A DNA stretch of 35,153 nucleotides from Candidatus Binatota bacterium (GTDB lineage Bacteria; Desulfobacterota; Binatia; Bin18). Each line of letters opens with the position of its first letter. Within the stretch, counting starts at the first letter, position 1. The stretch is taken from the NCBI GenBank assembly GCA_011523265.1, contig WTHD01000395.1, positions 1 through 35,153 of the forward strand. Reading direction: 5' to 3'. Below, one piece after another: positions 11,912 through 34,712 of the stretch. The notes under the pieces were generated by a model, which saw only the letters and a program-made list of their open reading frames with translations, had not been told where the DNA came from and searched no databases. The translations under genes were made by a program, and so were the position numbers.

Positions 11912-11913
11912 AA

Positions 11914-11985
11914 GTCTGTTGAGTCGATTGGGTCTGTTGAGTCTGTTGGGTCTGTTGAGTCTGTTGGGTCTGTTGAGTTTATGGG
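11914..11985 (+). repeat. 9-bp minisatellite array 1
   Basis: Eight exact-length 9-bp units (GTCTGTTGA / GTCTGTTGG alternating, two degenerate) begin 2 nt after the bolA stop. In reverse complement the unit is YCAACAGAC, the same family as the arrays at 32750-32812 and 34119-34190. Confidence 0.9.
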
Positions 11986-12037
11986 GTCTAAGCCGGAGCA
12001 AATCATGATGCTGTGTAGCGCGTCTCTCTCCCCCTTG

Positions 12038-12089
12038 AGGAGTGCGGGCTTCCAGCCCGCATGGCGGCCAGGATGGTCGCCCTCCCAGG
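12038..12089 (+). repeat. Double-hairpin repeat, copy 1 (forward)
   Basis: Core of two adjacent hairpins: GCGGGCT-TCC-AGCCCGC, then GCGGCCA-GGA-TGGTCGC, bounded by AGGAGT and CTCCCAGG. Similarity with copy 2 extends a further ~40 bp outward (to about 11998; about 37 of 42 bases match), making these two a longer unit of about 92 bp. It ends 19 bp from the stop of the epimerase gene. Confidence 0.92.
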
Positions 12090-12107
12090 AGGAACGCCGC
12101 CCAAGTC

Positions 12108-20078: not shown

Positions 20079-20385
20079 GAGCGCAGTGCTATCAGAACTT
20101 CGGCAGCGGCCAAAGAGGGGGCGGTTGAACTGTACGAATATGCTGCCGTTTCGACGCAGGTTTCCGCTTGTCGGCTAAAAAACTGAGAGGCGGCGGGGCT
20201 AGAAAGTCTGGTTGTCCGGTTGTGATGCCCATTCCCCGCGTTGCCTGGGAGAGCGGCCATCTTGGCCGCTTGCGGGCTGGAAGCCCGCACTCCTAGAGCC
20301 CCACCCCGCCGAGGACCCACGAAACAATACGCATCACACATCTACTGTGGGGAGAGGGAGATTTCTCCTGATGGGGATTTCTTTT
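20079..20385. other. 307-bp gene-free interval upstream of purB
   Basis: It holds double-hairpin repeat copy 3 and a GC-rich piece (CCCCACCCCGCCG, about 20300) resembling family 2. The purB operon promoter must be in the first ~160 bp, but I cannot assign convincing -35/-10 boxes. Confidence 0.5.
20244..20294 (-). repeat. Double-hairpin repeat, copy 3 (reverse)
   Basis: GCGGCCA-TCT-TGGCCGC and GCGGGCT-GGA-AGCCCGC bounded by CCTGGGAG and ACTCCT. It lies upstream of the purB operon. Confidence 0.92.
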
Positions 20386-23619: not shown

Positions 23620-23670
23620 AGGAGTGCGGGCTTCCAGCCCGCAAGCGGCCAAGATGGCCGCGCTCCCAGG
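23620..23670 (+). repeat. Double-hairpin repeat, copy 4 (forward)
   Basis: GCGGGCT-TCC-AGCCCGC and GCGGCCA-AGA-TGGCCGC bounded by AGGAGT and CTCCCAGG, 28 bp after the gmhA stop. With copy 5 (29137-29187) it brackets the protease gene in inverted orientation. Confidence 0.93.
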
Positions 23671-23794
23671 CAGCGGGAGGGCGAGCGACCCGAGGTGGGG
23701 GTCGCCGGACCGGTCCCGGGCGGCTCACGCCACAATCTGCATCACCTCTCCCAGGACGGTGTGATACGAGAGAGGGAGTTCTGGGGGGAGGATC

Positions 23795-29136: not shown

Positions 29137-29187
29137 CCTGGGAGCGCGGCCAGCTTGGCCGCGTGCGGGCTGGAAGCCCGCACTCCT
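29137..29187 (-). repeat. Double-hairpin repeat, copy 5 (reverse)
   Basis: GCGGCCA-GCT-TGGCCGC and GCGGGCT-GGA-AGCCCGC bounded by CCTGGGAG and ACTCCT. It lies 39 bp after the protease stop. Confidence 0.93.
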
Positions 29188-29230
29188 GGCCCCCTGTCGC
29201 AGACCGGCACGGCGCAGGACCGGGGTGGGT

Positions 29231-32745: not shown

Positions 32746-32749
32746 CCCA

Positions 32750-32812
32750 GACCCAACGGACCCAACGGACCCAACAGACTCCATAGACTCAACAAACTCA
32801 ACAGACTCAAAA
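32750..32812 (+). repeat. 9-bp minisatellite array 2
   Basis: Seven 9-bp units (GACCCAACG, GACCCAACA, GACTCCATA, GACTCAACA and variants) fill the 69-bp gap between the oxidoreductase and gspF. The array stops 2 nt before the gspF ATG, so the gspF leader has no ribosome-binding site apart from an A-run. Confidence 0.9.
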
Positions 32813-32814
32813 AA

Positions 32815-34050
32815 ATGCCGCAGTTCCAATACCAGGCAACCACCCCGCAAGGGCAGCTGATTGAAGGCGTCAGAGAAGCCGAAGAGGAGCGTGCGGTCGT
32901 GGCCTGGCTCCACACCCAGGGCTATATCCCCCTCAACGTCGCGCTCCCGCACGGCCGGGAAGCAAAAACCGCGCGCAACTGGCAGCTCTCCCTGCCGGAT
33001 TTTCCCTGGCGTGGCCGCGTCACGCAGCGCGACGTGCTGCTCCTGACCCGTGAGCTGGCCACCATGCTTGCGGCCGGGCTGCCCCTGGACCGGGCGCTGT
33101 CCGCCCTGGTCGGGCTGGCGTCAAAACCGGCCCTGAGCCGTGTGGCGGACGACGTGCTGAAGACCGTCCAGCAGGGTAAATCGCTGGCCGATGCCCTAGC
33201 CCAGTACCCCACCATCTTCCCTCCCTTATATCTCAACATGGTTCGGGCCGGAGAAGTCGGCGGCTTTCTGGAGACGGCGTTGCAACGCCTGACGGAATAT
33301 CTTGAGCGTGCCCAGGAGGTCCAGGAGGAAGTGAAGTCGGCGCTGACCTATCCGGTCCTGCTCGTCCTGTTTGGTGCCGGGGCGATAGTCTTCATGTTCA
33401 TCTTCATCCTGCCGCGCTTTGCCGGCTTGTTTGCCGACAGCGGCCAGGCCCTCCCGGCGTCAACCCGGTTCATGCTGGCGACCAGTGAGGTGTTGCGTTC
33501 CTACTGGTGGGGCTTCCTCCTGGCCGGGGCCGGCGGCGTGTTTGGCTGGCAGCGCTATGTGGCCACCCCCCAGGGCCGCCTGGCCTGGGACGGCTTCCGC
33601 CTCCGCCTCCCCCTGCTCGGCTCCTTGCTCCAAAAGCGCGAGGTGGGCCGTTTTTCCCGTACCTTAAGCACCTTGCTGAGCAGCGGGGTGCCGCTGCTCC
33701 AGGGGCTGGAGGTGGTGGAGGCCGTTGTCGAGAACAGCGTCATCCGTCAGGCCGTCAAGGAAGTCCGCGCCGGCGTCCGGGAAGGGCAGGGGCTGGCCGC
33801 CCCGCTCGGCCGCACCGGCGCCTTTCCGTCGCTGGCGCTGCAAATGATCGGGGTGGGCGAGGAAACCGGCCGACTGGACGATATGCTGAAGCAGGTGGCC
33901 GATTACTTTGAACGCGAGACGCAGCGGCAGATCAAGCGGATGACCTCGCTGGTCGAACCCATCCTGTTGCTGACGATGGGACTGATCATCGGTTTTGTGG
34001 TCATTGCCATGCTGGTCGGGATCTTCAGCATCAACGATATGCCCCTCTGA
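32815..34050 (+). CDS. gspF: Type II secretion system inner-membrane protein GspF
   Basis: GspF is the polytopic inner-membrane platform protein of the type II secretion system (PilC homologue). The 411-aa protein starts MPQFQYQATTPQGQLIEGV, has two T2SSF domains (about 70-195 and 275-400; RELATMLAAGLPLDRALSAL, FSRTLSTLLSSGVPLLQGLE) and hydrophobic segments at about 176-197, 228-246 and 381-405. MIGVGEETGRLDDML is typical. The minisatellite directly precedes the ATG with no Shine-Dalgarno sequence, so translation initiation may be unusual. gspE is not upstream in the window. Confidence 0.95.
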   Translation: MPQFQYQATTPQGQLIEGVREAEEERAVVAWLHTQGYIPLNVALPHGREAKTARNWQLSLPDFPWRGRVTQRDVLLLTRELATMLAAGLPLDRALSALVGLASKPALSRVADDVLKTVQQGKSLADALAQYPTIFPPLYLNMVRAGEVGGFLETALQRLTEYLERAQEVQEEVKSALTYPVLLVLFGAGAIVFMFIFILPRFAGLFADSGQALPASTRFMLATSEVLRSYWWGFLLAGAGGVFGWQRYVATPQGRLAWDGFRLRLPLLGSLLQKREVGRFSRTLSTLLSSGVPLLQGLEVVEAVVENSVIRQAVKEVRAGVREGQGLAAPLGRTGAFPSLALQMIGVGEETGRLDDMLKQVADYFERETQRQIKRMTSLVEPILLLTMGLIIGFVVIAMLVGIFSINDMPL

Positions 34051-34097
34051 CGGGTAGAAAGAACAGGCAGAAGGAACGCTCAGAAAGGAAGTGGCGT

Positions 34098-34595
34098 ATG
34101 CGGCATAATCCCCCTCAACCGACCCAACCGACCCAACCGACCCAACCGACCCAACCGACCCAACCGACCCAACCGACTCAACAGACTCAACCGTTCGGTC
34201 AGGCCGGTTTTACGCTCATCGAGCTTCTGGTCGTGATGGTCATCATCGGTCTGCTGGTTGCCCTGGTCGGGCCGAACGTCATGGGCCGCGCCGAGAAAGC
34301 CAAGCCCCAGGCCGCCCGGATGCAGATCGAGAATCTGGCCAGTGCGCTGGAGATGTTCAAACTGGACGTCGGCAGGTATCCGACCGAAGAGGAAGGCTTG
34401 TCCGTGCTCCGCCAGGCGCCGTCCGGCGTGGACCGCTGGGACGGCCCCTATCTCAGAAAGCAGGTGCCCAAGGACCCGTGGGACCGTGACTATGTCTATC
34501 GCCTTGCAGGAAAAGAATTTGAGGTGCTCTCCTACGGCGCGGATGGCGCGACCGGCGGTGCCGATGTGGACGCCGATATTCTCAGTTCCGAATAA
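34098..34595 (+). CDS. gspG: Type II secretion major pseudopilin GspG with PTQ-repeat leader
   Basis: GspG is the main subunit of the type II secretion pseudopilus. The 165-aa product has the prepilin peptidase site G-FTLIELLVVMVIIGLL with Glu at +5, then VMGRAEKAKPQAARMQIENL, LDVGRYPTEEEGL, DGPYLRKQVPKDPWDRDYVY and a DADI calcium-site tail. Oddly, the leader before the cleavage site is 37 residues and consists largely of seven PTQ repeats plus QTQ, translated from a 9-bp minisatellite (34119-34190). There is no in-frame ATG, GTG or TTG between the array and the cleavage site, and ATG 34098 has a good AAAGGAAG, so the array is very probably translated. Usual leaders are about 5-25 residues. 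Confidence 0.94.
   Translation: MRHNPPQPTQPTQPTQPTQPTQPTQPTQQTQPFGQAGFTLIELLVVMVIIGLLVALVGPNVMGRAEKAKPQAARMQIENLASALEMFKLDVGRYPTEEEGLSVLRQAPSGVDRWDGPYLRKQVPKDPWDRDYVYRLAGKEFEVLSYGADGATGGADVDADILSSE
34119..34190 (+). repeat. 9-bp minisatellite array 3, inside gspG
   Basis: Six units CCGACCCAA, one CCGACTCAA and one CAGACTCAA, all in frame (Pro-Thr-Gln). It belongs to the same unit family as the arrays at 11914-11985 and 32750-32812. Confidence 0.95.
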
Positions 34596-34635: not shown

Positions 34636-34686
34636 AGGAGTGCGGGCTTCCAGCCCGCAGGCGGCCAAGATGGCCGCTCTCCCAGG
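34636..34686 (+). repeat. Double-hairpin repeat, copy 6 (forward)
   Basis: GCGGGCT-TCC-AGCCCGC and GCGGCCA-AGA-TGGCCGC bounded by AGGAGT and CTCCCAGG, between gspG and gspL and therefore inside an operon. Confidence 0.93.
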
Positions 34687-34712
34687 CAGGATGGCCACTC
34701 TAGGAGGCTTGG

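Follow-up and report, generated by a model that had tools for sequence, protein, structure and literature searches.

A dispersed 9-bp minisatellite in the prepilin leader of GspG, a probable insertion-tolerant segment, in a Candidatus Binatota genus

Can a signal-type leader consist mostly of minisatellite DNA, and does such a leader do anything for the cell that carries it? This question is raised by a type II secretion gene, gspG, on contig WTHD01000395.1 of a Candidatus Binatota bacterium, a stretch of 35,153 nucleotides that was analysed as a whole and is called the window here. The gene (34098..34595, forward strand) encodes the major pseudopilin of the type II secretion system (T2SS), with 165 residues. 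Its product matched the GspG profile TIGR01710 with 154 bits (cut-off 88.85) and the T2SSG domain PF08334 with 126 bits. The prepilin motif G|FTLIE and the following hydrophobic stretch were matched by N_methyl (PF07963) and TIGR02532 with 31 bits each, and from these matches the prepilin peptidase is predicted to cut between Gly37 and Phe38 (34206..34211, forward strand). In a contig scan leaving out very near genomes, the best named GspG matches were only ~60% identical. Directly upstream lies gspF (32815..34050, forward strand), encoding an inner-membrane T2SS protein (PF00482, 219 bits; TIGR02120, 409 bits, slightly below the cut-off of 424), and a weak PilM-like match marks the gene that runs from 34713 onward. 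A Shine-Dalgarno-like AAGGA (34085..34089, forward strand) is located 8 nt before the gspG ATG, and the block AGAAAGGAAGTG..ATGC is kept in all five congeners that carry the gene, the window genome included. The start of gspF differs in appearance: it follows straight after a 9-bp array (32748-32815), and no clear Shine-Dalgarno sequence precedes its ATG. A dispersed repeat of 54 nt with two palindromic halves (TGCGGGCTTCCAGCCCGCA and GCGGCCAAGATGGCCGC) is also present in the window in five copies (12038-12091, 20247-20300, 23620-23673, 29140-29193 and 34636-34689), the last of them just after gspG.

The GspG translation reads MRHNPPQ-(PTQ)7-QTQ-PFGQAG|FTLIELL. The leader comprises 37 codons (34098..34208, forward strand) and ends with Gly37 in a -QAG|FTLIE- motif that is invariant in the relatives. 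It carries one Arg and one His at its start and no acidic residue. Residues 8-31 (24 residues) are (PTQ)7QTQ, in agreement with the initial annotation, and are encoded by the minisatellite (CAACCGACC)8.7 at 34116..34193 (forward strand; Tandem Repeats Finder: period 9, 8.7 copies, 95% match, score 135). The array and the GspG profile matches together uphold the description of a prepilin leader built of a minisatellite. Two details needed correction. The array had been placed immediately before the cleavage motif; six non-repeat residues (PFGQAG) intervene. The leader region had been ended at 34210, and by codons it ends at 34208. Three perfect units, searched for with at most three mismatches, gave six matches in the window and none in 100 dinucleotide shuffles, which together with the Tandem Repeats Finder score rules out a chance repeat as the source of the array.

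Clear gspG orthologues were found in four congeners of the window genome. Each species was represented by a single genome, mostly as a draft assembly, although G001 and G006 are single contigs. Including the window, the leaders are 13, 20, 36, 37 and 37 residues long: MQRKKNRVPGQAG in G006 (13 residues, no array), MRQTQQTQPTQPTPMSGQAG in G001 (20), MRHNPPQSPLKRGRCVLTQTQPTQPTQPTQPTRQAG in G002 (36) and MRHNPPQSPLKACDAYGGVSRGDRPVAPTSRLSNQAG in G004 (37). The initial annotation held that leader length could vary between cells and proposed a comparison with related genomes; between species it does vary, and a constant leader is refuted. Mature GspG has 128 residues and gspF 1236 bp in 5/5 species. 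Alignment of the gspF-gspG junctions revealed the conserved Shine-Dalgarno/ATG block and a second conserved block, CAGG(C/T)(C/T)GGTTTTACGCTCAT, which encodes QAG|FTLI. Between these blocks the sequence is unalignable among the five congeners, and none of the leaders has a stop in the gspG frame.

Relatives have not kept the 9-bp array as a constant part of gspG. It is missing in G006, and in G004 it is replaced by a different repeat, a palindrome (GTAGGGGCGACCGGCCGGTCGCCCCTAC) that occurs at 16 places in that genome. Where the array is present, the species have different unit numbers (8, 4 and 3-4). Copy number thus differs between relatives at orthologous places, both in the gspG leader and upstream of gspF. 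All three leader arrays of the genus are of the CCG-type unit, and none has a stop-containing unit. Selection against stop-containing units was not significant (0/17 in gspG leaders compared to 64/529 elsewhere); stop-free units of one type may reflect a function that was retained or a common origin. The CCCCCTCAATCCCCCTT segment of the leaders gave at most one match per genome, which does not support a further dispersed family. Because G006 is the most distant by gspF identity, the simplest history would be one insertion after the G006 split, followed by copy-number change to 8, 4 and 3-4 units and by replacement in G004. No gspG was found in two further species of the genus (G003 and G005; 96% and 90% complete), though the minisatellite is present in both.

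The minisatellite is dispersed and nearly genus-specific, and it is not peculiar to gspG. The unit CAACMGACY was found in tandem in 7/7 genus genomes and in 1/9 other genomes of the family, and the reversed control pattern had zero matches. In the window's genome (G000), arrays lie on more than ten contigs and hence at many unlinked places; these counts rest on pattern searches and retrieved stretches. The window itself holds three arrays of the family according to Tandem Repeats Finder: the leader array, a related 9-bp array directly before gspF (32748..32810, forward strand) and a third at 11913..11989 on the reverse strand. The array before gspF occupies the same place in G001, G002, G004 and G006 with other, strongly different lengths. 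Many arrays of the family are paired back to back in inverted orientation, often where genes end, and could form RNA hairpins. Copies are also found in frame inside other proteins, outside recognisable domains and in several reading frames (PTQ, DST, KDP). These include a LolA-like protein, where the copy follows the signal peptide (G000 and G001), a PP2C tail, the linker of an S49 (SppA-like) peptidase and two proteins named by eye from sequence with no model, one with the copy in a DnaX-like linker and one large and nuclease/helicase-like.

Repeats in GspG leaders are not confined to this genus. In a survey of the class, TIGR01710 was found in 132/148 genomes, and 109 leader records, including a few duplicates, were read, the start codons being picked by a simple rule. 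Leaders had a median of 13 residues with a tail up to 40. In another family of the class, f2, gspF usually ends in an overlap with the gspG ATG, and most array-free leaders have 7-16 residues (e.g. MIYHSRKYLNDARG). Five f2 members carry 7-bp arrays, often as inverted pairs and in frame, between the gspF-overlapping ATG and the cleavage site: AGGCAAC/GCCTACT in G016 (the second half also in G124), ATTTTAG/AATCCAA in G140 and G123, and TCGGGTT/AACTCGA in G128. A weaker, 6-bp repeat was seen at this place in G133. The start ahead of these six arrays is otherwise conserved. Two of the three heptamer unit types, the two that were searched for, were found elsewhere in f2 genomes. In 5/6 array-bearing f2 leaders, a stop interrupts one or both of the other frames but not that of gspG, which argues that these arrays are translated. 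Overall, tandem arrays were present in 11/101 leader windows compared to 2/101 for the 3' part of gspF and 1/101 for mature gspG, statistics that ignore shared ancestry. Two records of the survey were unusual: one array-bearing f2 leader (L266) has Ala, not Gly, before the cleavage point, and in G013 the cleavage motif is preceded by 54 open codons of the gspG frame, which include heptamer repeats but no ATG, GTG or TTG. The latter would point to a rare start codon or to an assembly frameshift.

The leaders of two further pseudopilins were compared in the same genus. The GspH leader has 22 residues in 6/6 species where it was found. The GspI leader is 16 residues long in G000 and G005 and 33-34 in G001, G002 and G004. 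This lengthening is due to an insert of 54 bp that keeps the frame, has inverted ends (AGGGAACGTATCC/GGATACGTTCCCT) and lies just before the cleavage site; G001, G002 and G004 have it, whereas G000, G005 and G006 do not. The insert was seen only in gspI of these three species and not elsewhere in their genomes, and a dispersed element of this kind is therefore not supported.

We consider it probable that the cleaved leader tolerates insertions, and that dispersed repeats land in it, persist provided that the reading frame is not broken and later change in copy number. Prepilin leaders remain cytoplasmic, and cleavage after Gly-1 removes them. Because the prepilin peptidase removes the leader, its sequence and length should be weakly constrained. 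A minisatellite may thus have settled in the cytoplasmic GspG leader, between the conserved start and the conserved -QAG|FTLIE- motif, where an insert would survive as long as it leaves the frame open and spares the start and the Gly-1 motif. The array would then gain or lose 9-bp units by slippage or unequal recombination, and leader length would come to differ by species with the length of the mature pseudopilin unchanged. We infer that slippage changes the copy number of the leader array; the GspG leader is predicted to be cleaved as usual, and the effect of the array on the cell is presumably near neutral. The repeated presence of other repeat families in the same place of gspG points to a tolerated landing zone and not to a purpose-built length regulator. 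Most likely, a cleaved, mostly hydrophilic stretch tolerates insertion, and the array in the window is such a tolerated insertion without demonstrated benefit.

Other readings of the array were weighed against this one. A role at the mRNA level, in which the CA-rich, unstructured array just downstream of the start codon helps ribosomes to initiate on gspG, is quite unlikely. In the window, the span from -30 to +90 is indeed less structured than its shuffles (z = +2.5), but the same span is not conserved in this respect (z ~0 in G002, -0.3 in G006 and -2.05 in G004). Low mRNA structure is strong in the window only and is rejected as a property common to the relatives as a group. Moreover, the array starts 18 nt after the ATG, and the span from -20 to +40 is not unusual (z = 1.1).

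The initial annotation had proposed a leader that is tunable for prepilin peptidase or membrane insertion. Such a leader would be an evolved contingency device: unit gain and loss would be selected, unit number would fluctuate between cells, and leader length would set the efficiency of GspG processing by prepilin peptidase, or alter membrane insertion, so that secretion output differs between cells. If true, this would provide graded heterogeneity of type II secretion with a gene that is never broken. As had been noted, gain or loss of a 9-bp unit preserves the reading frame, the period being a multiple of 3; unit number varies by species, and the leader-array units are nearly identical, which suggests a recent expansion. 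However, the minisatellite is spread genome-wide in the genus and into unrelated proteins, G006 has no array, G004 has a different repeat, and the f2 leaders have frame-breaking 7-bp units. Since these units do not keep the frame, frame-keeping per unit is not the reason why leaders hold arrays; the total alone must fit. We found no evidence for selected length tuning, and nothing favours it over drift. Both selection on leader length for secretion output and a control of processing efficiency by unit number therefore appear highly improbable.

It is exceedingly improbable that gspG starts at a non-standard codon downstream of the array, with the array itself an intergenic or 5' untranslated repeat; this was the condition under which the initial annotation would have been abandoned. 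Although the distant relative G013 has no in-frame ATG, GTG or TTG before the motif, the Shine-Dalgarno/ATG block ahead of the array is conserved in 5/5 genus species and gives an ordinary 13-residue leader in G006, every genus leader is open in frame, and in the window 34098 is the sole in-frame ATG, GTG or TTG from the upstream stop to the cleavage site, with no start codon between array and cleavage site, which rules out a downstream or alternative start there.

These bacteria offer a natural experiment on prepilin leader variability: GspG leaders range from ~7 to 40 residues among related species, and some consist of unrelated repeat DNA, while mature GspG has a constant length in the window's genus. 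The requirements for a prepilin leader thereby become directly testable with natural variants. Dispersed repeats that settle repeatedly in one gene segment also matter for gene calling, since such genomes readily lead to wrongly annotated starts and leaders. Literature searches on prepilin leaders and repeats in them gave no report of repeats invading prepilin leaders, which is not proof of absence.

The GspG described here resembles known GspG proteins with a class III (type IV prepilin) signal peptide in its T2SSG domain, N-methylation motif, Gly-1 before Phe+1, Glu+5 and position after gspF. Type IV pilin leaders are given as 6-26 residues in a review, and as about 15-30 for type IVb (PMC4471445). 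The window leader differs from these in its 37 residues, its composition of repeat units and its only one Arg. Coding tandem repeats serve phase variation, and the leader array is alike in being a tandem repeat within a coding sequence whose copy number differs between species; in contrast, no on/off switching is expected at the gspG leader because 9 bp keep the frame. Short units in many dispersed arrays within a narrow lineage are likewise found in cyanobacterial STRR. The same features are shared by BrickBuilt of P. gingivalis (PMC4596501) and the TAACTGA repeats of Beggiatoaceae (PMC4679880). BrickBuilt was reported to be always intergenic (PMC4596501), whereas the 9-bp arrays also form in-frame parts of proteins, among them a signal-type leader. 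MITE-like ends were not identified on the 9-bp minisatellite. Rickettsia palindromic elements insert in frame in genes and are alike in being dispersed repeats that are tolerated in frame within unrelated proteins. While those elements (named in PMC2635572) are a fixed palindrome, the repeat in the GspG leader is a tandem 9-bp unit of variable copy number, and its peptide is expected to be cleaved away.
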